Below, piece after piece: positions 2,870 through 60,655 of a DNA stretch of 64,000 bases. The position numbers and the translations under genes were made by a program. The DNA is from Pseudoclavibacter sp. AY1H1 (lineage in GTDB: Bacteria; Actinomycetota; Actinomycetes; Actinomycetales; Microbacteriaceae), in NCBI RefSeq assembly GCF_002931055.1, contig NZ_PSXX01000001.1, positions 372,001 through 436,000 on the forward strand, in the 5' to 3' direction. The notes under the pieces are model-generated. The model did no database searches. It worked only from the letters and a program-made list of their open reading frames with translations, and was not told the DNA's origin. The number at the start of each line of letters is the position of its first letter. Positions within the stretch are counted from its first letter, which is position 1.

Positions 2870-3597
2870 TCACGTTCCAGGCTCGCCACACGCAGCTCGC
2901 GACGGTGGTGACCGACGTCGTCCCTTCGGGGGTGGCGTACTCGGTCACCGCCGAGTCGGGCGGCGTGGACTGGCTGGTCGCGGAGGGGGTGGGGATCGGT
3001 GCCGCGGTTGCGGTGTCCGACCCCGCTGCGCCCGTCGACGAGCCGGTGACGTACACGACGAGGGTCGGGTCGACGGTGAAGTCCCGGCCGGGCGTCCGCG
3101 CTCACCGAGACGACGACACGATCGACACGATCCTCACTTCCGAGGACGGGCGTATCTCCGTGCCCGTCCTCTGGGAGGGTGACGCGGCCGTGACCATCGA
3201 CCCGCGGGCCACCTACGCGTATCCGCTGGCTTCCCGCTTCGCGGTGCAGCATCGGGCGCTCTCGTCGACGGCGCCCGCGTGGTCGTTCGAGTTCCGTGTC
3301 GACATCGACCAGGTCGCGGACGCGCGGAGGCTGCTCGAGACGGGCCGCTTCTGGGTGCTCCACATCCCGGAGCGCTGCGACGGCGGGTCGACGATCCCGC
3401 GGGTGATGCTCGCCGGCGTCGACGGCACCATCTCCGAATCGCGGTGGCCGTTGGGCCGCACGTACTCGGTCAAGCTGCAGCAGCTGCAGGCGCAGCAGAC
3501 GGGCCTCCCCGTGACGGCATGGGGCGACCCGGTCAGGCGGGTGTGGTCGGCGACGACAACGTTCGCCGGCATGCGGCGGAAAGTCAGGGGGGCGTGA
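2866..3597 (+). CDS. phage distal tail / minor tail protein
   Basis: A 243-aa protein whose ATG overlaps the tape-measure stop by 4 nt. Its place directly after the tape measure and its size suit a distal-tail (Dit-like) or first minor tail protein, which joins the tail tube to the adsorption apparatus. No enzymatic motif is visible. The N-terminal 60 residues are beta-rich, and there is a WSFEFRV segment near residue 140. The call rests mainly on gene order, since I do not recognise a specific family from sequence. Confidence 0.7.
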   Translation: MITFQARHTQLATVVTDVVPSGVAYSVTAESGGVDWLVAEGVGIGAAVAVSDPAAPVDEPVTYTTRVGSTVKSRPGVRAHRDDDTIDTILTSEDGRISVPVLWEGDAAVTIDPRATYAYPLASRFAVQHRALSSTAPAWSFEFRVDIDQVADARRLLETGRFWVLHIPERCDGGSTIPRVMLAGVDGTISESRWPLGRTYSVKLQQLQAQQTGLPVTAWGDPVRRVWSATTTFAGMRRKVRGA

Positions 3598-36941: not shown

Positions 36942-38066
36942 TCAGACGCACCAGCTCAGTGAGATGTAGCCCGCGTGCCCACGAGCGGCCCCCGACAGGA
37001 GACCGGAAGGTGCAAGCACGTAGTTGCTGATGGGAGTGCCGAGGGCAGTCGCCGCGCGGTACGAAGAGCCAGCGGCTCCGGTGCCGGTGGAGATGGTGAG
37101 ACGGGTGGTGCCGGTGAACTGCGACCCAACCATTCCTCCACCTCCGCCCCCTGCGTAGCCGCCGCCCCCGCCACCGGCGGAAGCGGCGAAGGAGCCCCCG
37201 CCGTTGTTCAGCCGGGCGGCACCGTTGCCGCCATTGCCGCCGCCGTTGGAGCCGAGCCCGAAGTTCTGACCGTTCGACCCCTCGACCCTGGTCGGCGGTC
37301 CCCAGTTGCCATTGGCGACCCGATACTGGGCCGTGCCACCGCGCGTGCCGCCGACAGGGCCATCCGCGGCGGTGGCAGGGTTCACCGCGAGTCCCGGAGC
37401 GGTGGAGTTCACCCTGCCGACCGCGCCGACACGTCCGTTGGGGGCGGAGCTACCGGCGTTCGCTGTCCCGTAGTTGAATCCAGTCGTCGCGTCCGGTGCC
37501 TGATACACGGTCGTCTGCTGCGTCGAGCCTTGAACGGTCTCTCGTACGGCGGAACCGCCTCCTCCGCCGGAGACCACGAGCGGAGTCCCACCGAGCGCTC
37601 CGAGCAGGAGTGCGCTGCCGCCACCACCGGCACCCGCAGGGCCACCAGGGTTGTCGCGGGGGCCGGGCGTCGAGTTTCCCCCACTGCCGTACCCAGTTCC
37701 GCCGGCGGCCGTGGTGCCGTCTGTCTTCACCTCGCCGCCCTGCCCGACCACGATCCCGAAGGTACGCTGCGCGACCGTGGCGTTGGTGGGCAGCGTGATG
37801 CGCCCACTGGAATTCGCCCCCTGGCCGCCAGCGACGGTGGAGCCCGCACCGCCCCCGGCACCCCGCACAACGAAATCGACGTACCTCGCCCCAGCGGGCA
37901 CTGTGAAGGTGGTCAGCTGTCCGGCGGTGCTGAAGACCTGGCTGGCCGTCGTGCACGTCGATGCCGCCGCGACTGGAACTGCCGTTGCTGTTGCCAGCAC
38001 GGGGAGGCTCCATGCCGCCCCGCGCAGAATGCTGCGCCGGCCATGGTCTTTTGCGTCACCTGTCAT
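36942..38066 (-). CDS. Tat-exported glycine-rich surface protein
   Basis: A 374-aa protein from ATG 38066. The first 40 residues form a twin-arginine signal (GRRSILRGAAW, hydrophobic core, AAAS site). The mature part starts with an FTVPAGARYVDFVVRGAGGG motif, the start of a Gly_rich_2-type domain, and continues with long Gly/Ser/Ala runs, ending in an AGYISLSW strand. Such proteins are secreted and often adhesin- or matrix-like. It is divergent from the Tat-exported protein at 38439. A single internal Cys pair seems likely near the N- and C-ends. Confidence 0.8.
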   Translation of the reverse strand: MTGDAKDHGRRSILRGAAWSLPVLATATAVPVAAASTCTTASQVFSTAGQLTTFTVPAGARYVDFVVRGAGGGAGSTVAGGQGANSSGRITLPTNATVAQRTFGIVVGQGGEVKTDGTTAAGGTGYGSGGNSTPGPRDNPGGPAGAGGGGSALLLGALGGTPLVVSGGGGGSAVRETVQGSTQQTTVYQAPDATTGFNYGTANAGSSAPNGRVGAVGRVNSTAPGLAVNPATAADGPVGGTRGGTAQYRVANGNWGPPTRVEGSNGQNFGLGSNGGGNGGNGAARLNNGGGSFAASAGGGGGGYAGGGGGGMVGSQFTGTTRLTISTGTGAAGSSYRAATALGTPISNYVLAPSGLLSGAARGHAGYISLSWCV

Positions 38067-38438
38067 GTGTTCTCTCGCTTTTCTCGAGTCGTGGGGGACG
38101 CGGCTCGCGTGAGAGCGGCACGTGCGCATTCGGAACTGCTGCTCATCCTGGGGAGATCCGCGCGGGAATGCGACGGGTGATCTCCTGACTGCGGATAAGC
38201 GACGATTTTCTGCGCAAAATGTCCCGCACGCTTCTTTGTCGTTCCGTGGGGACTTCGAGCGAGTGCGTCACCGAAGAGCTGTAGACAGAGGCGCGTGAGT
38301 TGATGTCAGTGCGGTTCGGTGTCGTGAACAGGCACCCGAGCGGACCGCTGGCGACACAAAAACGCACGCAACCGACGAAATTCCGCATCTCAGCGCCGAA
38401 AAGCACTTCTGCGCCCCCCGCGTTGTTACTTTTCCCGC
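38067..38438. other. divergent intergenic region
   Basis: A 372-nt space between two divergent Tat-exported protein genes. No confident gene is seen; a few A/T-rich patches (GATTTTCTGCGCAAAATG near 38195-38222) may hold promoters. Confidence 0.45.
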
Positions 38439-39122
38439 ATGAACCCACGTGAAACCGCGCACCAGCCTTCAGGCACGCATCTCTCCCGGCGCAACATCGT
38501 GACAGCAGGGGCTTGGTCCGTGCCGATCCTGGTCTCGGCCATCTCCTCTCCGCTTGCCTCCGCATCCCGTGAGCCTCGCGTGGATCCGACGGTCACGCGT
38601 GTGAGCTCGGGAGGCAGCACGACGCAACCGTACGATCAGTCTCCTTTGCGGTATGAAGCGACCGGCACGTCGGCAAATTCGGCTATATACCAGGACAACA
38701 GCGCCTATAACACGCGCATCTACGTTCGCAATAACGGTCCGGAAACGATGCCAGCGGGGTCGACGCTCACCATTTCGATTGTCGTATATCCCGCCTCAGG
38801 CGCGTACATCGACATCTCCGCATTCCAATCCGGTACCGCGGCACTTGGTATCAACAGCTCCACTATGACGGGTGGAGCGTTGACGTTCTCGGGCCCTTCC
38901 GGATCCAGCGGTGGGTCAATGAATCGGGTCTTCACCATCAATCGCCCTATCCCATCGGGATCGGAGTTCATGATCCAGATCGCGTTCAATATCGCCGACA
39001 TTAGCGCCGAGCGGCAGCAGGGCGGTCTCAGCGCCCGAATCACAGCCCCAACTGGAACCGTCGATACGAACACAGGCAACAACGTGCGCATCAGCGCGGG
39101 CGACGTGTACTACGTGCGCTAG
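38439..39122 (+). CDS. Tat-exported secreted protein
   Basis: A 227-aa protein with a twin-arginine signal (SRRNIVTAGAW, then a hydrophobic core and an ASA site near residue 43). The mature 180 residues are Ser/Thr/Asn-rich and beta-rich (IYVRNNGPETMPAGSTLT, then FTINRPIPSGSEFMIQIAF), resembling DUF11/CARDB-type immunoglobulin repeats of surface proteins. It has no Cys or visible catalytic motif. The start has a poor ribosome site. It is divergent from the glycine-rich protein and probably shares regulation with it. Confidence 0.75.
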   Translation: MNPRETAHQPSGTHLSRRNIVTAGAWSVPILVSAISSPLASASREPRVDPTVTRVSSGGSTTQPYDQSPLRYEATGTSANSAIYQDNSAYNTRIYVRNNGPETMPAGSTLTISIVVYPASGAYIDISAFQSGTAALGINSSTMTGGALTFSGPSGSSGGSMNRVFTINRPIPSGSEFMIQIAFNIADISAERQQGGLSARITAPTGTVDTNTGNNVRISAGDVYYVR

Positions 39123-50618: not shown

Positions 50619-51512
50619 CTACGGTGTCGGCATGCCGCCGTTCACGTTCAGTGTCTCGCCGAGCACATAGCTCGACTCGGGCGACGCGAGGAAGACGTAA
50701 GCGGGCGCAAGCTCAGCCGGCTGACCCATGCGGCCGAGCGGTGTGTCCTCGCCGAACTCCTCGACCTTCTCCGGCGGCTGCCCGTCGGTGACCTGCAGAG
50801 GCGTCCAGATCGGTCCGGGGGCGACGGCGTTCACGCGGATGCCCTTGGGCGCGAGCTGCTGGGCGAGCGCCTTCGTGAAGGCGTTGATGGTCGCCTTCGT
50901 CGACGCGTAGTCGACGAGGATGGCCGCGGGCGAGTAGGCCTGGATCGACGTCGTGTTGATGATCGTCGAACCCGGCGGGAGGTGGGGGATCGCGGCCTTG
51001 GAGATCTCGAACATCGCGTAGACGTTGACCTTGAACGTCTCGTCGAACTGCTCGCTCGTGAGCGTCGTGAGGTCTTCGTTGAAGATCTGCTTGCCCGCGT
51101 TGTTGACGAGGATGTCGAGTCCGCCGAGCTTCGCGACCGCCGCATCCGCGAGGCCCTTGACATACTTGTCGTCGGTCAGGTCGCCGGGGAGCTGCACCAC
51201 GTTGACGCCCGCGTCCTGGGCGATGGCGGTGATCCGGTCGGCGTCCTCCTGCTCCTCGGGCAGGTAGGCGATGGCGACGTCGGCGCCTTCGCGGGCGAAT
51301 GCGATGACCGTGGCCGCCCCGATGCCGGAGTCGCCGCCGGTCACGAGCGCGCGACGCCCCTTGAGGCGCCCGGATCCCTCGTAGGTGCTCTCACCAAGGT
51401 CCGCCGTGTCGCGGAGCTTCGAGTCGAGGCCCGGCTCGGTCTGGTCGTCGGAGTTCGGCGAGATCTCGCTGTAGAGCTTGGTGGGGTCGGTGAAGGTGTA
51501 CTGATTTGCCAT
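50619..51512 (-). CDS. short-chain dehydrogenase/reductase (YghA-type)
   Basis: A 297-aa NAD(P)-dependent enzyme. The 45-residue N-terminal extension with a typical YTFTDPTKLY start, the GGDSGIGAA cofactor motif, the NNAGKQ motif and the YASTKATI catalytic Tyr/Lys are characteristic of stress-associated 'extended' SDRs such as YghA/YhdF. The substrate is not known. It is the last gene in a block with a second SDR, SMP-30 and GH15. Confidence 0.9.
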   Translation of the reverse strand: MANQYTFTDPTKLYSEISPNSDDQTEPGLDSKLRDTADLGESTYEGSGRLKGRRALVTGGDSGIGAATVIAFAREGADVAIAYLPEEQEDADRITAIAQDAGVNVVQLPGDLTDDKYVKGLADAAVAKLGGLDILVNNAGKQIFNEDLTTLTSEQFDETFKVNVYAMFEISKAAIPHLPPGSTIINTTSIQAYSPAAILVDYASTKATINAFTKALAQQLAPKGIRVNAVAPGPIWTPLQVTDGQPPEKVEEFGEDTPLGRMGQPAELAPAYVFLASPESSYVLGETLNVNGGMPTP

Positions 51513-52426: not shown

Positions 52427-53317
52427 TCACTGCGGGCTCGCGGATGCCCCGAAGACGTTGGCGGGGCGACCGTGACCGACGCCTTCGATGGCGAAGATCG
52501 AGCCGCTGAGGGGTGCGTCGACGAGGTCGCTCTCGGTGAGGTTCTCTCGCGCCGTTCCGACGAACAGCGTCGAGAGCCCGTCGCCGCCGAAGGCGACGGA
52601 CGTGACATTCGGCGCCGGAAGGGTGAGGTCACCCAGCGGCGACGCGCTCGCGTCCCAGTGCGCCACGCGTCCAGCCCCGTAGATGCCGTTCCAGAACGAG
52701 CCGTCGACGTCCCTGGCCAGCCCGTCCGAGTTGCGCCCGTGGATAAACGGCTCCAGCTCGCCGAGGTCGTCGGGGCCAGGGCCGTAGCTCGCCCGGTAGA
52801 CGGTCTGCGTCGACGTGTCGGTCACGAAGATCGTGTCGCCGGAGTCGCTCCATTCGAGGCCGTTCGTCGTGTGGAACCCACCGAGGAGCAGTCGGACGGT
52901 GCCGTCGGCGTCGAAGGTGTACAGGGCTCCATCCGCCGCGGGCGACGTGGTGTTCATCGACCCGACGACGAAGCGGCCGAACGGGTCGACCTTGCCCTCG
53001 TTGAAGCGGATGCCACCGTGGGAGTGGACGACGGAGGCGATGGTCTTCTGCAGCTCACCGTCCGGCCCGAGCACGACGATGCGGTCCTGGAGCGACGCCA
53101 CGAAGCCACCCCCGGCGGCTGGCTGCACGGCGCTGACCGGGGCGGGGAGAGCGGAGACTCGGTCGTCGCTGCCGTCGCGAGCCCCGTCGAGCCTCGCCCG
53201 ATGGAAGGTGCCCATCGTGATATCGACCCAGGCGAGTTCGGAGGTGCGAGCATCCCACCAGATGCTCTCGACGAGCACCGAGCGCAGCTCGCGGAAGACG
53301 GTCGGTTCACTGGTCAT
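52427..53317 (-). CDS. SMP-30/gluconolactonase-type lactonase
   Basis: A 296-aa six-bladed beta-propeller. The metal ligands appear as the Glu of ESIWWDARTSEL, the Asn of HTTNGLEWS and the Asp of SDGLARDVDGSFW. The enzyme probably opens sugar lactones. Its start overlaps the end of the GH15 gene by 11 nt, and the SDR gene follows, which suits an oxidation-lactone hydrolysis sequence. Confidence 0.9.
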   Translation of the reverse strand: MTSEPTVFRELRSVLVESIWWDARTSELAWVDITMGTFHRARLDGARDGSDDRVSALPAPVSAVQPAAGGGFVASLQDRIVVLGPDGELQKTIASVVHSHGGIRFNEGKVDPFGRFVVGSMNTTSPAADGALYTFDADGTVRLLLGGFHTTNGLEWSDSGDTIFVTDTSTQTVYRASYGPGPDDLGELEPFIHGRNSDGLARDVDGSFWNGIYGAGRVAHWDASASPLGDLTLPAPNVTSVAFGGDGLSTLFVGTARENLTESDLVDAPLSGSIFAIEGVGHGRPANVFGASASPQ

Positions 53318-55115
53318 CTGTGGCTTCTTCCGGTGCGAGCTGTCTGATCAGGAGGGCGGCGTTGATGAGCGCGAGGTGGCTGAGCGCCTGCGGGAGGTTG
53401 CCCCAGAAGGCACCGTCGCCGGTGGCGATCATCTCGGCGAGCAGCCCGACGTCGTTGGTCTGCTCGACGAGCTCGTCCATTGCCGCGATCGCCTCCGAGG
53501 AACGGCCGACGCAGGCGAGCGCCGAGACCCGCCAGAAGGCGCAGGCGACGAAGGTGTGCTCTTCGCTGGCGACTCCCGAGTACCGGTAGAGGAGAGCGCC
53601 GTGGCCGAGTTCCCTGCTCAGTGCGTCGATGGTGGACGACATGCGCTCACCGCGATCGAAGCCGCTCGGCGCGTGGAGCAGCACAGAGGCGTCGAGGCGA
53701 TCCGAGCCGGGATGCATGACGTAGCTGGCGAGCTCCTCAGACCAGCAGTGCTCCAGCGTCCACGCTCGGATGCGCTCCCGTTCCGCTCGCCAGCGGTCGA
53801 CGTCTCCTTCGATGTGCGCGCCCTCCGCGAGCGCGATCGCGTCGTTGAGCGCTTGCCAGCACCCCATCTTGGAGGAGGTGTAGTGCTGTTCTTCGCCGAG
53901 TTCCCACATTCCTGCGTCTCGCTTGCGCCAGTCGTCGCAGGCCTTGTCGGCCACCTTGGCGAGGAGTCGTGCGGTTTCGACGTCGAGGAGGTTGCCGTCT
54001 TCGACATAGGTGCGGCTGATGGCGATGAGGTCGCCGTAGATGCCGAGCTGCAGCTGCCCTTGCGCGGGGTTTCCCGTCACGACGGGGCCGTTGCCGCGCC
54101 ATCCGGGGACGTCGTACTTCTCGACGCCCGCGCACGTCTCGCCGTTGAGCGAGTACATGACGTAGATGTCCGGGCCCTGCTCGCGGATGGTGCGCAGCAG
54201 CCAGGAGATGGCCGCGTGCGTCTCCTCTCTGAGTCCGAACCAGACGAGGGCGTGCGCGGTGTAGGCGAGGTCGCGGATCCAGGCGAACCGGTAGTCCCAG
54301 TTCTTGCCGCCTGCCGGGTTCTCGGGCAGCGACGACGTCCCCGCCGCGGCGATAGCACCCGTGGGACTGTAGATGAGGAGCTTCAGCGCCAGCGCGCTGC
54401 GCTGCACCTGCTTGGACCATGGGCCTTCATAGGAGAACTCCTCGGACCAGCTCAGCCAGCTCTCGATGGTTCGGTCGATGCCCTTGTCGACGTTCTCCGG
54501 CTCGGGAACGCGGAGGGGCTCACCCTCGGTGGCGGTCAGGACCAGCAGGTGCCGCGAGTCGAGGGCGGTCGTGAACCCGCCGCGGAGCTCGACCTCCTCC
54601 GCGCCGCTGCGCGGGTCGGCGCTCTCGGGGCCGTGCTCGCTGCCGACGACGGCGAGGGAGAGCTCGCCGCAGCGGATGATGGTGTGCTGACCGACGCGGT
54701 CGAGCCACGGGGATCTGGTGCCGAGCATCGTGCCGGGTACGACGCGCCAGGTGAACTCGACGCTGCCTTCGATGCCGTCGATTCGTCGGGCGAGCTCGGC
54801 CCAGGGCAGGCGCCCGGCGACGCCCGTGACCATGGCGTCGGTGACGCGTGCCACACCGCTCTCGCTCGTGTAGGTGGTCTCGAGCACGTTGGTCTGCTCG
54901 ATGTAGCGCCTCGTGGACGTGAAGTCGCCCGCGGGGGTCAGCTCGACGTACCCGCCGGTCTTGTCGTCGAGAAGGCGCGCGAAGACGGGGAGCGAGTCGA
55001 GGTTGGGCAGCGGCAGCCAGTCGACGCGTCCGTCGGGTGTGACGAGGGCGATGGTGCGCCCGTCGCCTATGGCGGCGTAGTCGCGAAGGGGGAATCCGGG
55101 GGGAGTCTGCGTCAT
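53307..55115 (-). CDS. glycoside hydrolase family 15 protein (glucoamylase/trehalase-like)
   Basis: About 602 aa from ATG 55115; GTG 55124 is also possible. An N-terminal beta-sandwich (1-240) precedes an (alpha/alpha)6 barrel. It shows the NWDYRFAWIRDLAYT motif, a catalytic acid Glu in GMWELGEEQHYTSSKMGC, and a second acidic motif in ASEEHTFVACAFWR. It is cytosolic, with no signal peptide. The family includes trehalases and glucoamylases, and the actual substrate is unknown. It is the first gene of the block with SMP-30 and two SDRs. Confidence 0.9.
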   Translation of the reverse strand: MTQTPPGFPLRDYAAIGDGRTIALVTPDGRVDWLPLPNLDSLPVFARLLDDKTGGYVELTPAGDFTSTRRYIEQTNVLETTYTSESGVARVTDAMVTGVAGRLPWAELARRIDGIEGSVEFTWRVVPGTMLGTRSPWLDRVGQHTIIRCGELSLAVVGSEHGPESADPRSGAEEVELRGGFTTALDSRHLLVLTATEGEPLRVPEPENVDKGIDRTIESWLSWSEEFSYEGPWSKQVQRSALALKLLIYSPTGAIAAAGTSSLPENPAGGKNWDYRFAWIRDLAYTAHALVWFGLREETHAAISWLLRTIREQGPDIYVMYSLNGETCAGVEKYDVPGWRGNGPVVTGNPAQGQLQLGIYGDLIAISRTYVEDGNLLDVETARLLAKVADKACDDWRKRDAGMWELGEEQHYTSSKMGCWQALNDAIALAEGAHIEGDVDRWRAERERIRAWTLEHCWSEELASYVMHPGSDRLDASVLLHAPSGFDRGERMSSTIDALSRELGHGALLYRYSGVASEEHTFVACAFWRVSALACVGRSSEAIAAMDELVEQTNDVGLLAEMIATGDGAFWGNLPQALSHLALINAALLIRQLAPEEATDDQ

Positions 55116-55325
55116 GAGGGTCACGACGCTACGGGAAGGCTCGGTCCGCTCCGTGGGAGTTTCCTCCGCGTGCCTGAGCGCCTGCCGCTACTCGTGAGCG
55201 CGCATGGTTAACGGGTCGCTCGCCTGGTGTCAACCCTCCTGTGACCTCACGGTCGGCGTGCGTAGCGTGCTGTGGACCGGGGAGTGCAGCATCCCGCCGT
55301 TGGGTATGGCTGGAGGGAGAACAGG

Positions 55326-56396
55326 GTGCTCGAGTTCATGGGCAGGATCGGGGTCGACGCCGACTTCTGGGACGGCAGCGCCCGGCTCCTCGAGGCCGCC
55401 GAGGAGTGCGCAGGGGACGCCCCGCAGATGCTCGGCGCCCTGCGCGAGCTCCCTCCTGTCCCAGTGCCTGGACGCGGTCGCACTCGCTCGCTGCTGCATC
55501 TGCTGTCGAGCATCGCCGCGATCGATCTCACCGCCGCCCGTGTCGTCGAGCCGCACTTCGACGCCGCCGCGATCCTCGCGCAGACGGGGGCGGAAGTCGG
55601 ACGCGGTGAAGCCTGGGGTGTCTTCGCTTCTGCGTCGCCGGTGGCTGTCCGCTGGCTTCCGGGGGCAGACTCGCACAGCGTGGCCGAGGGTGCAGACGCT
55701 GAGCTGACCGGCACCAAGCGCTGGTGCTCGCTCGCAGCGAAACTCGATCGCGCCCTCGTCACCGCGTCGGATTCGATGGGGGAGTGGATGTTCGTGGTCG
55801 ACCTCCGGCAGGCGGCGGTGGTGCCGCGCGGCGGCGGGGCACCCTTGACCGGCCTCCGTGGAGTGCCGAGCGGGCCGGTCGATCTCCACTCGGCGACTGC
55901 GAGAGCCGTGGGGGATGTCGCCGACTGGTACACCTCGCGTCCGGGGTTCGCTTGGGGTGGGATCGCCGTTGCCGCCGTGTGGTTCGGGGGAGCGGTGGCC
56001 CTCGGGCGTGCGCTCGAACGCGCTGTGGGCGGCAGGGAACCGGACCAGCTCGGTCTCGCCTGGCTCGGTGAGGCAGATCGTCTGCTGCACGGCGTCCAGG
56101 TCCAGCTCGACGACGCCGCCGACCGCATCGACGCGGGGAGCGCCGACTGGGCGCTTGCTCAACGGGTGCGCGGGAACACCGCCTCCGCCTGTTGGCGCCT
56201 GCTGGCACTCTGCGGAGAGGCCATGGGGCCTGGCCCCCTCGCCTTCGACGCCACGCACGCACGACGGGTCGCCGACCTCACCATGTATCTCAGCCAGCAT
56301 CACGGAGCCCGCGACGACGCAGCTCACGGGCAGCAGCTCGCGGCCGCGCTGCACCGCTCCTCCGAAGCCCCATCGATCTCGGGGGACGACTCGTGA
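55326..56396 (+). CDS. acyl-CoA dehydrogenase-like protein
   Basis: A 356-aa protein from GTG 55326 with GGAGGGAG 7 nt upstream. The ADAELTGTKRWCSLAA segment matches the beta-barrel of acyl-CoA dehydrogenases, and the last 130 residues match the C-terminal helical bundle (AVAAVWFGGAVALGRALE, then NTASACWRLLALCGEAMG). It is somewhat short, and no catalytic Glu is obvious. It may act as a flavin hydroxylase-like oxidase instead. It is the first gene of a five-gene operon with 4-nt overlaps. Confidence 0.85.
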   Translation: MLEFMGRIGVDADFWDGSARLLEAAEECAGDAPQMLGALRELPPVPVPGRGRTRSLLHLLSSIAAIDLTAARVVEPHFDAAAILAQTGAEVGRGEAWGVFASASPVAVRWLPGADSHSVAEGADAELTGTKRWCSLAAKLDRALVTASDSMGEWMFVVDLRQAAVVPRGGGAPLTGLRGVPSGPVDLHSATARAVGDVADWYTSRPGFAWGGIAVAAVWFGGAVALGRALERAVGGREPDQLGLAWLGEADRLLHGVQVQLDDAADRIDAGSADWALAQRVRGNTASACWRLLALCGEAMGPGPLAFDATHARRVADLTMYLSQHHGARDDAAHGQQLAAALHRSSEAPSISGDDS

Positions 56397-57880
56397 TCGG
56401 CGCCGCATCGGTGGAGTTCACGCATCTGGACACGGGGACACCAGAGGCAGCCTGGCGGGAAGCCGGTATCGAGCACCTTCCGACCCTCGCGCTGGAAGAT
56501 GCACTCGGTCCGGAGACGCTGCTCATCGTCGGAGCCGCGCACCCCGACGACGAGTGCCTCGGCGCCGCCGGCCTCATCCTCAGGGCACTCGCGGCCGGAG
56601 CCGCCGTGCGCGTCCTGCTGTGCACCTGGGGCGAGGCCTCGCACCCAGCTTCGCCGAGCGTCCAGCCCCCGGCGCTCGCCGAGCTGCGACGAGCAGAGTT
56701 CCACGAGGCACTCCGACGGCTCCGCACGAGTCCGTCCGCGGGGTCCGAGGCCACCGGCGGCCAGACGGGCTCCATCGAGTCGGTCGAGCTCGGCCTCGGC
56801 GACGGCCAGCTCTCGCAGTCCACCGACCTCATCGCAGACGCCGCAGCGAAGATGGTCCGGGATTCGCCGGCACAGCGTGTCGTCATCGCCGCGCCCTACC
56901 GGAGAGACGGACACACGGATCACGACACCGTCGGTGCCGCGCTCGCGCGGGCCGCCGCCGAGTCCGGCGCGCTGCTCCTCGAGTTTCCGATCTGGTTCTG
57001 GCACTGGGCACACCCCGCGCGCGACAGCGAGTGGCGTCACTGGATGCGACTTCCACTCGCTGCGGCGGAGACCAAGGCCAAGGCGGCCGCCCTCGACGCG
57101 CATGTCTCGCAGCTGTACGCGCTCTCCAACGAGATCGGCGATGAGACGGTGCTCGGGGCCAGCCAGGTCGAGCACTTCTCGAGGAGCTTCGAGGTCTTCC
57201 GGGTGACGGCGAGCGCGACGCGCGACGCCGGCTCGGCGAGTCACACGTTCGATGGCGTCCATGCAGACGCGGACGACCCTTGGGACCTTCGATCCAGCTG
57301 GTACGAGCGGCGCAAGCTCGCCCTCATGGTCGGGATGCTGCCCGACGAGACATACCGGCGCGCCCTCGAGATCGGCTGCTCCATCGGCGAGAGCACCGCA
57401 GCACTCGCTGTGCGGTGCGATCACCTGCTCGCCGTCGACGCGAGTGCCACCGCCCTCGGCCTCGCCGCGGCGAGACTCGCCGATCTCACGGGCGTCGATC
57501 TGGCCAAGGCAACCCTGCCGCACGAATGGGACAGACTCGGTCTCGGACCCGGTCAGCTCGATCTCGTCATCGTCTCCGAGACCGGCTACTACCTGGCGGA
57601 GGACGAGCTCTGCGAGCTCCTCGCCAACTCCCGCCGAGCCCTCTCGCCGACCGGCGTGCTCGTACTCTGCCACTGGCGTGGTCCGATCGACGGCTGGCCG
57701 CTCGACGGCGACCGAGTGCACGCCCTCGCAGCACGACTCGGCATGCGCAGCCTCGCCTCCTACTCAGAGGACGAGACCCTCATCGATATCTACGAGAACG
57801 GGATGCCGCCGAGCGGTGGCTCCTGCTTCGCCGCCGCTGCAGCCTCTGGTGCGCAGCAGTCTGCGAGCGCTGCCGGATGA
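56393..57880 (+). CDS. PIG-L deacetylase / NodS-like methyltransferase fusion
   Basis: A 495-aa two-domain protein; GTG 56393 overlaps the previous stop. Residues about 40-260 are a zinc PIG-L/LmbE deacetylase: AAHPDDECLGAAG (His 50, Asp 53) and a DGHTDHDTVG motif. Residues about 293-480 are a class I SAM methyltransferase: WDLRSSWYERRKLAL, then ALEIGCSIGESTAALA (motif I) and a LDLVIVSETGYYL motif, as in the NodS family that N-methylates a deacetylated amino sugar. A combined sequence of deacetylation and N-methylation is the natural reading. The fusion is known as an annotated type in actinobacteria, but the product is unknown to me. Confidence 0.92.
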   Translation: MIGAASVEFTHLDTGTPEAAWREAGIEHLPTLALEDALGPETLLIVGAAHPDDECLGAAGLILRALAAGAAVRVLLCTWGEASHPASPSVQPPALAELRRAEFHEALRRLRTSPSAGSEATGGQTGSIESVELGLGDGQLSQSTDLIADAAAKMVRDSPAQRVVIAAPYRRDGHTDHDTVGAALARAAAESGALLLEFPIWFWHWAHPARDSEWRHWMRLPLAAAETKAKAAALDAHVSQLYALSNEIGDETVLGASQVEHFSRSFEVFRVTASATRDAGSASHTFDGVHADADDPWDLRSSWYERRKLALMVGMLPDETYRRALEIGCSIGESTAALAVRCDHLLAVDASATALGLAAARLADLTGVDLAKATLPHEWDRLGLGPGQLDLVIVSETGYYLAEDELCELLANSRRALSPTGVLVLCHWRGPIDGWPLDGDRVHALAARLGMRSLASYSEDETLIDIYENGMPPSGGSCFAAAAASGAQQSASAAG

Positions 57881-58707
57881 CGGTGACGAGTCCAGTGAGC
57901 GGTTCGGCGACCGGTGCGGGGAACTCGCGCACCCCCATCCGCGATCTGCGGATCGTGGTGCCCGCTCGCGACGAAGCGGAGACGCTGGCCGAGTGCCTCG
58001 CCGCGTTGACGGTCGCGATGGACTCGATCCGCTGCGCGAGCGCAGGTGTTCGGGTGCAGCTGGTCCTCGTCCTGGACAGCTGCCGCGACGCGAGCGCGCG
58101 GATCGCGGCCCGAGCCTCCGAGCGGGACGAGCGCATCCGCGTGATCGAGGGCCTGCACGGCTCTGTCGGCGAAGCCAGACGAGCGGGGGTGAGGGCCGCC
58201 CTCAGCCTCAGCTCCGGGGGCGACCCGACAGCCGTCGACCCGACCTCGACGTGGATCGCCTCCACCGATGCCGACTCCGCCGTGCCGCGGGGCTGGCTGC
58301 TCACACAGCTCGAGTTCGCCGACGCAGGCATCGACCTCCTGCTGGGGACGGTGAACGTCGAACCCCAGTCGGATGCTCCGCACGTCGAGGCCGGGTGGCG
58401 TCGGGACTACTCGAGCGTCGAAGGGCACCCGCACATCCACGGTGCCAACCTCGGCGTCCGGGCCTCGGCCTACCTCGCCGCCGGTGGGTTCCCTCCGATC
58501 CGGGAACACGAGGACACCGGCCTCGCCGCCGCGGTCAGCGCGTGCGGCTTCACCGTGCATTCGACGGCTAGCTCACCCGTCCTGACATCGGGACGGCAAC
58601 GCGGACGCACGCCGGGCGGCTTCGCTGGCTACCTGGAAGACCTGTGCGCCCCGAATCTCGAGCCACGAGACAATCGGGATACGGCAAGCGAGAGGAGCAG
58701 GGCATGA
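57877..58707 (+). CDS. family-2 glycosyltransferase
   Basis: A 276-aa protein with an ATGA overlap with the previous gene. A GT-A fold begins with RDLRIVVPARDEAETLAECL; the metal-binding DXD motif is STDADS near residue 130, and the acceptor region has a HGANLGVRASAYLAAGGF motif. It transfers a sugar to a small acceptor and has no TM helix. It overlaps the next gene (ATGA). Confidence 0.9.
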   Translation: MTVTSPVSGSATGAGNSRTPIRDLRIVVPARDEAETLAECLAALTVAMDSIRCASAGVRVQLVLVLDSCRDASARIAARASERDERIRVIEGLHGSVGEARRAGVRAALSLSSGGDPTAVDPTSTWIASTDADSAVPRGWLLTQLEFADAGIDLLLGTVNVEPQSDAPHVEAGWRRDYSSVEGHPHIHGANLGVRASAYLAAGGFPPIREHEDTGLAAAVSACGFTVHSTASSPVLTSGRQRGRTPGGFAGYLEDLCAPNLEPRDNRDTASERSRA

Positions 58708-59231
58708 CAACGGCACGAGGATTCGACCACGACGTCTACGCGGGGTATCTCAACGCGCACCTCCTGGCCTCGGAGGCGGGGCTGCGCGCATTCAAGTCAG
58801 CCAAGGCAACGTGGGCCGGATCGCCGCACGAGCAGACGATGCGGTTGCTCATCGCCCACATCGCGGCCGACCGCCGCGACCTGGCGTCGCTCATCGATCA
58901 GCTCGGCTACCGCGAGTCATTCCTGAAGCTCTGGCTCACGAACGCGGCGCGCGTGGCCGGCACATTCAACCCGGTGAACATCCTGCGCCTCAGGCAGCGC
59001 CCGAGCACGCAGCTCGAACTCGACACCCTCACCGGCATGGTGCGCGCCAAGCTCTCCATGTGGGAGGCGCTCATCGCAGTGCAGCCCCGGGACCCGCGAC
59101 TCGTGCTCTCCGGCTTGCAGGAACTCGAAGCGCGTGCGCACACCCAGATCGAGCTCATCCAGAGCATCAGCCGCGACTCCGTCGAGGAACGATTCCTCGA
59201 GCAGGACCCACGGGCGGGCGCAGGGCGGTGA
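58704..59231 (+). CDS. helical protein of the same operon, ferritin-like
   Basis: A 175-aa protein of mostly long helices (TMRLLIAHIAADRRDLASLI, then QLELDTLTGMVRAKLSMWEALI), resembling four-helix DUF or ferritin-like proteins, but clear iron ligands are not seen. It begins and ends in 4-nt overlaps with its neighbours, so it is part of the operon. Function unknown. Confidence 0.75.
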   Translation: MTTARGFDHDVYAGYLNAHLLASEAGLRAFKSAKATWAGSPHEQTMRLLIAHIAADRRDLASLIDQLGYRESFLKLWLTNAARVAGTFNPVNILRLRQRPSTQLELDTLTGMVRAKLSMWEALIAVQPRDPRLVLSGLQELEARAHTQIELIQSISRDSVEERFLEQDPRAGAGR

Positions 59232-60655
59232 GCCGCCGAGCGGTTGTCGTCGGGGCGGGTCCCAACGGACTCACAGCTGCAGCGCTCCTTGCGAGGCGCG
59301 GCGTCGAGGTCACCGTGTACGAGCGGGACCCCCAGATCGGAGGAGCGGCGAGGTCCGCCGAGCTGTTCGGGCCCGGTTTCGTGAGCGACCTCGGGGCTGC
59401 GGCGCATCCCTTCGGCGTCGCGAGCCCGGCGTTTCGCGAGCTTGAGCTCGAGCAGAACGGGCTCGAATGGGTGCAGCCCGAGATCCCGATGGCGCACCCG
59501 CTGCCAGGCGGCCGCGCGGCGATGCTGCACAGGGACATCGAACGCACGGCCCAGGAGCTCGGCGTCGACGGCCCCAACTGGCGACGCCTGCACGAGCACT
59601 TCTCGCACCATCCCTTCGAGACGGTGGAGAACGCGATGGGTCCGCTCCTGCGAATTCCCCCGCATCCCGTCGACATGGTGCGACTCGGGGTCTTGGGGGC
59701 CCTGCCGGCGGCGACGCTCGCGAACCTCGTCTTCCGAAGCGGCGCGGCCAAGGCACTCCTCGCCGGCTCCTCGGCGCACGCGACGCTGCCGCTCACCCGA
59801 CCGCTGACATCGGCGTTCGGCATCGCCTTCGGCGCCCTCGGCCACAGCACCGGGTGGCCCGTGGCGAAGGGCGGATCGGCGAGCATCACGGATGCGCTCG
59901 CCAGGGTGCTGCTCGCCAACGGCGGCCGCATCGAGACCAACGCAGAGGTCACCGACCTTCGCGACCTCCCGCGGGCTGACGCCGTCCTCCTCGACCTCAC
60001 GCCGAAGCAGATCCTCCGCATCGCCCCCGAGCAGCTGGAGTCGCGCTATGCCGCTCACCTCGCACGATGGAAGTATGGGGCTGGCGTGCACAAGATCGAC
60101 TACCTGCTCGACGGGCCCGTGCCGTGGGAGGACGCGCGGGTCGCGTCCGCCGGCACCGTGCACGTCGGCGGGGAGTTCCGGCAGATCATCGAGGCCGAAC
60201 GCGACATCAACCGCGGGCGCATGCCGGAGAAGCCGTTTGTCATGGTCACGCAGCAATCTGCTGCGGACGCGAGCAGGACACACGATGGCAGGCAGGTCCT
60301 CTGGTCGTACGCGCACGTCCCGAACGGGACAGCGCTCGACGTGCGCCCAGCCCTCGAAGCACAGATCGAACGCTTCGCGCCAGGATTCGCAGACGTGGTC
60401 CTCGAACGTCGAGAGTGGTCGCCGAGCGCGCTCGAAGCGTGGAACCCGAACCTGGTCGGCGGTGACATCGGCGGCGGTTCGATGGCGGGCACGCAGCAGC
60501 TGTTCCGGCCGGCGCCCTCGCTGCATCCCTACCGCGCCGGACGACGGGGACTCTACGTGTGCTCGTCGTCGACGCCGCCCGGGGGCGGGGTCCACGGCAT
60601 GCCGGGTCTGCACGCTGCACGCGCCGTGATGCGCGATTGGGCACGCCGCGACTGA
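59228..60655 (+). CDS. FAD-dependent oxidoreductase (CrtI-like)
   Basis: A 475-aa flavoprotein from a GTG overlapping the previous stop. The VVVGAGPNGLTAAALLARRG dinucleotide motif, the YERDPQIGGAARS segment and the C-terminal CSSSTPPGGGVHGMPGLHAA motif are those of phytoene-desaturase-like enzymes. The substrate may be an isoprenoid or another lipid. It is the last gene of the overlapping operon. Confidence 0.9.
   Translation: MSRRAVVVGAGPNGLTAAALLARRGVEVTVYERDPQIGGAARSAELFGPGFVSDLGAAAHPFGVASPAFRELELEQNGLEWVQPEIPMAHPLPGGRAAMLHRDIERTAQELGVDGPNWRRLHEHFSHHPFETVENAMGPLLRIPPHPVDMVRLGVLGALPAATLANLVFRSGAAKALLAGSSAHATLPLTRPLTSAFGIAFGALGHSTGWPVAKGGSASITDALARVLLANGGRIETNAEVTDLRDLPRADAVLLDLTPKQILRIAPEQLESRYAAHLARWKYGAGVHKIDYLLDGPVPWEDARVASAGTVHVGGEFRQIIEAERDINRGRMPEKPFVMVTQQSAADASRTHDGRQVLWSYAHVPNGTALDVRPALEAQIERFAPGFADVVLERREWSPSALEAWNPNLVGGDIGGGSMAGTQQLFRPAPSLHPYRAGRRGLYVCSSSTPPGGGVHGMPGLHAARAVMRDWARRD

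Follow-up and report, generated by a model that had tools for sequence, protein, structure and literature searches.

The stretch of DNA analysed here (the window) comprises 64,000 nucleotides from Pseudoclavibacter sp. AY1H1 (NCBI RefSeq assembly GCF_002931055.1, contig NZ_PSXX01000001.1, positions 372,001 to 436,000), and our subject is a run of five genes at 55326-60655 of this window, listed with its surroundings in Table 1. A sequence-only reading had described these genes as a single overlapping operon for an N-methylated, perhaps acylated amino-sugar product; as a physical arrangement the run is just as described, with a 4-nt overlap at each of the four junctions (GTGA, ATGA, ATGA and GTGA). 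The first three genes encode a flavoprotein of the acyl-CoA dehydrogenase (ACAD) fold, a PIG-L deacetylase joined to a NodS-family methyltransferase (MT) that uses S-adenosylmethionine (SAM), and a family-2 glycosyltransferase (GT2). Because gene 2 is a fusion, these three genes amount to four enzyme activities, and we refer to them below as the cassette.

Table 1. Features at and around the cassette (positions in the window)
Feature	Position	Strand	Start and basis
Core gene 1, ACAD-fold flavoprotein, 356 aa, predicted oxidation step	55326..56396	+	GTG start; family profile, AlphaFold 2 (AF2) model, PDB comparison
Core gene 2, PIG-L N-deacetylase (~aa 45-230) fused to NodS-family SAM methyltransferase (~aa 290-470)	56393..57880	+	GTG start; Pfam
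Core gene 3, GT2 glycosyltransferase with TDAD motif, no predicted membrane helix	57877..58707	+	ATG start; Pfam, hydropathy
Accessory gene 4, helical protein, 175 aa, separate module	58704..59231	+	ATG start; AF2 model, co-occurrence
Accessory gene 5, CrtO/CrtI/amine-oxidase-like FAD flavoprotein, paired with gene 4 in some loci	59228..60655	+	GTG start; Pfam, NCBIfam
Intergenic stretch between divergent GH15 gene and cassette, putative promoter region	55125..55325		position only
Divergent neighbour, GH15 with trehalase-like N-terminal domain (PF00723 + PF19291)	53307..55124	-	Pfam
Neighbour, SMP-30/gluconolactonase family protein	52427..53317	-	Pfam
Neighbour, SDR oxidoreductase	50619..51512	-	family match

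Genes 1-3 are a conserved four-enzyme unit found across distant bacteria. Among 297 sampled Micrococcales genomes, 84 carry both the ACAD gene and the PIG-L/MT gene; at 84 of 87 strong ACAD places a PIG-L/MT gene lies on the same strand at a distance of at most 3 kb, and 84 of 88 strong PIG-L/MT places have an ACAD gene nearby. Only strong matches entered this count (ACAD down to 9.4e-47, PIG-L/MT down to 3.4e-38), leaving out weaker matches and second fragments of split or broken genes. The exceptions are a contig break in genome G023, ACAD genes without a strong PIG-L/MT match in G014 and for one copy in G228, and PIG-L/MT genes without ACAD in G124, G152 and G166. Genome G228 carries two cassettes in addition to this third, unaccompanied ACAD copy. 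The order ACAD, PIG-L/MT, GT2 is kept in 60 of the 62 loci that hold all three (63 loci including the window), GT2 coming first in L144 and L145, and this constancy shows that the run of genes 1-3 is not a product of chance. Two pairs of loci (L109/L033 and L110/L027) are apparently from the same genomes, so that the locus counts for gene order, and those for the ACAD columns given below, hold at least two duplicates.

The domains of the cassette also combine into single proteins. Many Actinobacteria have a PIG-L/MT fusion, and at three loci, in Citricoccus (L021, L023) and Micrococcus (L030), a single open frame of 717-729 residues encodes PIG-L, MT and GT2. PIG-L and MT are separate genes in Actinopolyspora, Halosaccharopolyspora and Kitasatospora, and also in the proteobacterial loci that show both, in most of them as neighbours (Acinetobacter, Pandoraea, Comamonas, Legionella and others). 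Within Pseudoclavibacter, 5 of 10 genomes of the genus have the full-length PIG-L/MT fusion; in one more, G009, the two are divergent and separate, and the ACAD match is weak.

The cassette extends to the alpha, beta and gamma classes of the proteobacteria, and parts of it occur in Deinococcus, Rubrobacter and Nostoc. Searches of 72,556 plasmid records (PLSDB) matched 46 with the Acinetobacter ACAD, 68 with the Sulfitobacter MT and 59 with the window fusion; on a Nostoc plasmid the MT and ACAD matches lie ~0.9 kb apart. On the plasmid of Rubrobacter indicoceani (L048 6945-11596), a polysaccharide deacetylase (PF01522), ACAD, MT, FAD oxidoreductase and glycosyltransferase follow each other in that order, and the window PIG-L used as query gave no match in the 18.5-kb stretch; this single case of a NodB-type deacetylase in the place expected of PIG-L fits a sugar-deacetylation step. 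The pyridine-nucleotide oxidoreductase between MT and glycosyltransferase at this locus is possibly an electron donor for the ACAD. Against a fixed four-enzyme unit stand loci where it is incomplete or rearranged: Paraburkholderia D15 has MT and glycosyltransferase only, Deinococcus proteolyticus shows MT only with a glycosyltransferase on the opposite strand, and several alphaproteobacteria have a different, reversed or absent glycosyltransferase. The glycosyltransferase neighbour is reversed in Bradyrhizobium, Jiella and Komagataeibacter, and in Cupriavidus basilensis PIG-L is on the reverse strand, ~3 kb off. One further record matched (L214, NZ_CP077849.1) is from Acinetobacter baumannii and, at 3.66 Mb, is of chromosomal size although listed as a plasmid in PLSDB; its cassette lies ~4.5 kb from a resistance-gene cluster. 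Each of the enzyme families is known, and as far as we have checked their combination is undescribed: searches of an open-access library, which lacks most subscription papers and every preprint, turned up no account of the cassette.

Gene 2 matches the Pfam families PIG-L (74.5 bits, cut-off 28.2) and NodS (PF05401; 48.1 bits, cut-off 24). In PIG-L/LmbE proteins the HxDDE and HxDH motifs have zinc-binding and catalytic roles. HPDDE and H-x-D-H are invariant in 21 of 21 fused PIG-L sequences, and in a mixed PIG-L set the H, D, D, E and the H-x-D-H are invariant in 17 of 17, with the Pro variable. All 20 MT sequences compared share a DPW motif, two Glu, one Gly and one Tyr without variation. The nearest solved structures to the MT domain are PDB 4ISC (E 1.1e-57), followed by NodS 3OFJ (E 3.4e-23, over profile positions 274-409). 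The former, deposited as ‘Methyltransferase’, is the closest solved relative and probably of the same subfamily; it covers the MT domain only (164 residues). MshB and BshB1, the deacetylases of the mycothiol and bacillithiol pathways, belong to the same PIG-L family and act in a similar small glucosamine-conjugate chemistry, and with the fusion profile as query, MshB structures were matched at E ~5e-14 to 8e-14. Gene 2 nonetheless falls far short of the NCBIfam equivalog cut-offs for both (MshB 25.9 of 224.35, BshB1 31.9 of 182.5), and we rejected an identity with either. Similarly, a low-molecular-weight-thiol pathway was set aside, as the five window proteins include no cysteine ligase or other thiol-pathway family.

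Gene 3 matches Glycos_transf_2 at 41.9 bits (cut-off 23.3). Its DxD aspartates D131 and D133, together with E212 and D213, are invariant in 19 of 19 GT2 sequences, whereas the QxxRW motif occurs in none of the 19. The highest mean hydropathy over 19 residues is 1.72 (L120) among these sequences and 1.35 in the window protein. The Nod-factor backbone is made by the NodB/NodS/NodC pathway, in which NodC is a processive membrane chitin synthase, a GT2 with QxxRW. What the cassette shares with the rhizobial enzymes is the association of N-acetyl amino-sugar deacetylation, NodS-family N-methylation and a GT2; it differs in having PIG-L in place of NodB, a GT2 lacking QxxRW in place of NodC, no NodA, and an additional ACAD-fold enzyme. 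The grouping of deacetylase, NodS-family methyltransferase and GT2 put forward in the sequence-only reading is supported by the fusions, the adjacency, the kept catalytic motifs and the deacetylase swap in Rubrobacter; Nod-factor chemistry proper is not supported. A Nod-factor pathway was rejected on the missing QxxRW and NodA and on a gene 2 score of 51 bits against the NCBIfam NodS equivalog NF041650, which has a cut-off of 300. Nor is the acylated or lipid product that had been suggested supported: Pfam and NCBIfam reveal no acyltransferase family among the five window proteins (for gene 5, among the best 25 of 130 NCBIfam matches), and the ACAD lacks the catalytic Glu of fatty-acyl-CoA dehydrogenases.

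The description of gene 1 as ‘Acyl-CoA dehydrogenase-like’ is borne out by the fold. The window protein scores 18.2 bits against PF02770, below the 33.3 cut-off, and 21 of the 28 members of our ACAD alignment A1, the window protein included, match this family at E <= 0.01. Its AF2 model is a complete ACAD fold (mean predicted local distance difference test score, pLDDT, 89.3). In structure matches from Foldseek and VIA, the VIA Z was 31.4 for isovaleryl-CoA dehydrogenase (IVD), 30.9 for TdsC, 29.9 for MsuC, 29.9 for KijD3 and 29.5 for DnmZ, differences below 1 being taken as ties. The fold (Z 29.4-30.9) is thus shared with the group D flavin monooxygenases DszC/TdsC, MsuC, KijD3 and DnmZ, of which KijD3 and the nitrososynthase DnmZ are amino-sugar enzymes. 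According to a review, group D flavin monooxygenases share a domain present in acyl-CoA dehydrogenases, and the reference list of the same paper includes a sugar N-oxygenase structure (PMC6165268).

For the catalytic columns, 86 loci were examined and 83 gave a row (none for L031, L216 and L226), one row per locus being kept out of 85 rows. At the Glu site of the medium- and short-chain (MCAD/SCAD) type, Glu is found in 0 of 82 readable loci, one further locus being gapped; the residues are 67 His, 5 Ala, 3 Gly, 3 Asn and one each of Arg, Lys, Val and Ser. At what we take to be the IVD-type site, placed by eye on the alignments with the help of the IVD numbering, 82 of 83 loci have Gly and one has Asp, with no Glu. 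As neither of the known sites shows the catalytic Glu, gene 1 is unlikely to carry out the usual dehydrogenation of acyl-CoA. In this lack of the dehydrogenase Glu gene 1 resembles the group D monooxygenases; unlike them, its family has its own conserved RQHH or RQxxPD motif, it is structurally just as similar to dehydrogenases, and its cassette has no reductase partner. On a Deinococcus radiodurans plasmid (L045 3172-5511) the ACAD next to PIG-L is 779 residues long, and its first ~400 residues have no Pfam match.

The surroundings of the cassette often point towards stress. We compared 33 pairs of 19-20-kb stretches, case and control lying on the same contig 100 kb apart, at a threshold of 150 bits and with query proteins of checked family; the 33 case stretches are those of 40 whose contig allowed a control, with G228 contributing two. 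Catalase was found in 5/33 case and 0/33 control stretches, Zn-alcohol dehydrogenase in 8/33 and 0/33, SDR in 3/33 and 0/33 (4 and 1 at 100 bits), and GH15 in 3/33 and 0/33. At least one of these four is present in 13/33 case and 0/33 control stretches (p = 2.8e-5), an exploratory figure which is optimistic because the very loci used for the test had also served to choose the families. Among other neighbours, GT4 was found in 6 against 1 of 33, SMP-30 in 2 against 0 and the second SDR of the window in 1 against 0. A UgpC-type ABC ATPase, named by eye as a frequent neighbour, is not enriched (1/33 case, 4/33 control, at 100 bits). With proteobacterial queries, the 40 Micrococcales case stretches gave catalase 6, LigD 3 and Ku 2, and the 33 controls gave none of them.

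Similar genes occur on plasmids. We chose 21 annotated plasmid loci for diversity and not at random; at 10 of them a gene for catalase or Ku/LigD or a trehalose/alpha-glucan gene is in view (Acinetobacter towneri, Sulfitobacter, two Novosphingobium, Paraburkholderia, Comamonas, Cupriavidus basilensis, Bradyrhizobium, Roseivivax and Legionella lytica). It counts against a stress context that catalase, Ku/LigD and trehalose genes are all missing from view at the other 11 (Kitasatospora, Pandoraea, Deinococcus radiodurans, D. proteolyticus, Roseomonas, Rubrobacter, Sphingobium, Jiella, Komagataeibacter, Paracoccus and Sphingomonas). At the Kitasatospora locus there are, however, genes for spore photoproduct lyase and PRC-barrel proteins, and at the Pandoraea locus a CsbD gene. 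In a study of Sphingomonas melonis Fr1, Ku, GlgX, catalases, a Zn-dependent alcohol dehydrogenase and a glycosyltransferase operon (#3505-3509) are among the EcfG-dependent genes (PMC6599016), and the kinds of gene in this alphaproteobacterial general stress regulon match those beside the cassette. The comparison concerns kinds of gene and does not equate this operon with the cassette. No tie to the cassette emerged for the desiccation genes reported from Curtobacterium (PMC12029717) and A. baumannii (PMC6181384).

Taking these observations together, we propose that genes 1-3 are a mobile biosynthetic cassette for a soluble, N-methylated, oxidised amino-sugar glycoside made under stress, a reading on which our confidence is evenly balanced. 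In the first step, the soluble GT2 would move an N-acetylated amino sugar, probably derived from a UDP-sugar, onto a small soluble acceptor. PIG-L, to judge from its kept motifs, would then strip the N-acetyl group from what we presume to be this substrate, and the NodS-like domain, by its family and its fusion, would N-methylate the freed amine. In the last step the ACAD-fold flavoenzyme would oxidise the product, likelier as an oxygenase in view of the lost Glu, and perhaps at nitrogen, as in sugar N-oxygenases of the same fold. The product may be a cytoplasmic protective amino-sugar glycoside of stress or stationary phase, built in some lineages on a trehalose-related acceptor. The amino-sugar substrate, the position of the methyl on nitrogen, the oxygenase role of the flavoenzyme and a small soluble stress product are all inferred. 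Of the earlier proposal of an N-methylated amino-sugar pathway, then, the grouping of genes 1-3 is retained, without five-gene unity, acylation or Nod-factor chemistry proper.

A more far-reaching version, in which the cassette, present in several phyla and often plasmid-borne, makes an undescribed N-methylated, flavin-oxidised and possibly N-oxygenated amino-sugar glycoside as a stress metabolite, in some lineages built on trehalose, is offered tentatively and is in its entirety rather doubtful. If it were true, the ACAD-fold enzyme would be a primary-metabolism relative of antibiotic sugar N-oxygenases. The cassette is common and, in isolates from soil, plants, the sea and the clinic, often stands near known survival genes; if its product is a protective solute or signal, it would be a new molecule for bacterial stress responses. 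The cassette also allows a direct test of what an ACAD-fold enzyme does when it lacks the catalytic base, and in the PIG-L-MT-GT2 fusion most of the chemistry can be tested on a single protein.

The strongest alternative, which is possible yet hardly probable, is that the cassette modifies a surface glycan or glycolipid, the methylated deacetylated sugar being a residue of a polysaccharide made by several glycosyltransferases or a head group. This would account for the extra glycosyltransferase genes beside the cassette in Novosphingobium, Sphingobium, Jiella and Knoellia/Janibacter-type loci, for the ACAD-PIG-L-MT trio with another glycosyltransferase in some alphaproteobacteria, for a gene of the lipoteichoic acid (LTA) synthase family ~4 kb upstream in Roseomonas, and for a UDP-galactopyranose mutase near the Deinococcus proteolyticus MT. 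Apart from these Roseomonas and D. proteolyticus genes, no polymerase, flippase or lipid-carrier gene was seen in the annotated stretches, and at some loci the only glycosyltransferase is a single GT2. Furthermore, a small diffusible substrate fits the fusion of PIG-L, MT and GT2 in one protein, with no membrane helix in the GT2 relatives tested, better than a surface glycan does.

It is unlikely, in our estimate, that the product is specifically a modified trehalose (of the amino-trehalose or glucosaminyl-trehalose type) serving as a compatible solute, although individual loci are suggestive. On a Comamonas endophytica plasmid (L218 7607-12575) otsA, ACAD, PIG-L, MT, GT2 and otsB form one run of genes touching or nearly so; in C. 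antarctica otsA directly adjoins ACAD; Legionella lytica has the run otsB-GH65-PIG-L-MT-GT2-ACAD; and in Acinetobacter towneri otsA/otsB lie ~2 kb from the cassette. OtsA is scarce among plasmids (361 of 72,556 records), and in the window the GH15 enzyme encoded divergently from the cassette has a trehalase-like N-terminal domain. Trehalose genes nevertheless adjoin only a minority of cassettes, with OtsA at 1 of 40 Micrococcales and 2 of 24 plasmid loci, which weighs as well against the trehalose-related acceptor allowed for above; as a general rule the link was not upheld in Micrococcales. In addition, trehalose genes are general stress genes and possibly just co-regulated with the cassette.

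Quite unlikely, in turn, is that gene 1 truly dehydrogenates or desaturates an acyl or thioester group, the pathway then making an acylated amino sugar as in the sequence-only reading. In its favour are the fold held in common with IVD, the presence among the matches of ColB1, which according to its PDB title dehydrogenates a carrier-bound cysteine, and the actinobacterial profile, which puts CarC and true acyl-CoA dehydrogenases first and DszC tenth. The broad ACAD profile has DszC as its best match (E 9.5e-18), so that kinship with oxygenases or dehydrogenases changes with the profile used. Other points also weigh against an oxygenase. In an HHalign comparison with 20 acyl-CoA dehydrogenases of the genus (20 of 21 loci tried, picked by their YEGT motif; E 2e-10), their catalytic Glu aligns with His326, but this C-terminal column lies in a low-confidence stretch of the alignment that appears only at a relaxed -mact 0.05, which leaves it uncertain by about one residue. 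In two loci (L025 and L125) there is a Glu one position before His326, and no flavin reductase or electron-transfer flavoprotein (ETF) gene belongs to the cassette. On the other side, Glu is found at neither catalytic position in readable loci, and the five genes include no acyltransferase, CoA ligase or carrier protein. Of the two roles, oxygenase or dehydrogenase of a CoA ester, we consider the first more likely for gene 1.

Genes 4 and 5 are a lineage-specific addition, separate from genes 1-3, and the pathway boundary should be placed at 55326-58707. Gene 4 has no Pfam family above cut-off, and its AF2 model is helical and weak (pLDDT 65.3). Gene 5 matches NAD_binding_8, DAO and Amino_oxidase, all above their Pfam cut-offs; its earlier description as ‘CrtI-like’ is apt as a generic resemblance only, since the scores for CrtO, its best NCBIfam match (114 bits, cut-off 1000), and for crtI_fam (44.6, cut-off 238.1) are far too low, and a carotenoid enzyme was rejected on these cut-offs. 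Homologues of gene 4 occupy 41 places in the 297 Micrococcales genomes, on either strand 1 of 41 within 10 kb of a cassette (that of the window itself) and 2 of 41 within 20 kb; a test confined to one strand had given these same figures. The either-strand test covers 71 of the 88 PIG-L/MT places, the other 17 being in genomes without a gene-4 match. Assembly breaks limit the comparison, since the 24 genomes that have both carry them on one contig in 8 cases and on different contigs in 16. Among 29 other gene-4 loci fetched with ~1.5 kb of flank, only L052 has gene 5 beside gene 4, and inspection by eye of the flanking open reading frames at seven loci revealed no partner in common. The gene-4 family is widespread in Micrococcales (41 of 297 genomes), with no constant partner seen.

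Several observations weigh against so clean a separation. Outside the 297-genome sample, the pair follows the cassette in identical five-gene order in four further Pseudoclavibacter loci, and in Glutamicibacter and Arthrobacter it lies near the cassette in reverse orientation. Near the cassette there is also a weak match to gene 4 in L143 (1e-6) and a flavoprotein resembling gene 5 in L133 (1e-110), and the cassette is more frequent than expected among genomes that have gene 4 (24/41, Fisher p = 2.8e-5). Even with these points and the 4-nt overlaps of the window, a single pathway of all five genes, helical protein and CrtO-like flavoprotein included, is very improbable, since at 40 of 41 gene-4 places the contig holds no cassette in the 10 kb around and only one of the 29 other loci fetched has gene 5 next to gene 4, and the claim of one five-gene pathway is not sustained.

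On the other side of the putative promoter region, beyond the GH15 gene and away from the cassette, the window continues with the SMP-30 protein and then two SDR oxidoreductases, of which the one listed in Table 1 may be called YghA-like. Elsewhere in the window, two open reading frames (36942-38129 on the minus strand and 38439-39122 on the plus strand) begin, as judged by eye, with twin-arginine-like signals, and their products look secreted.

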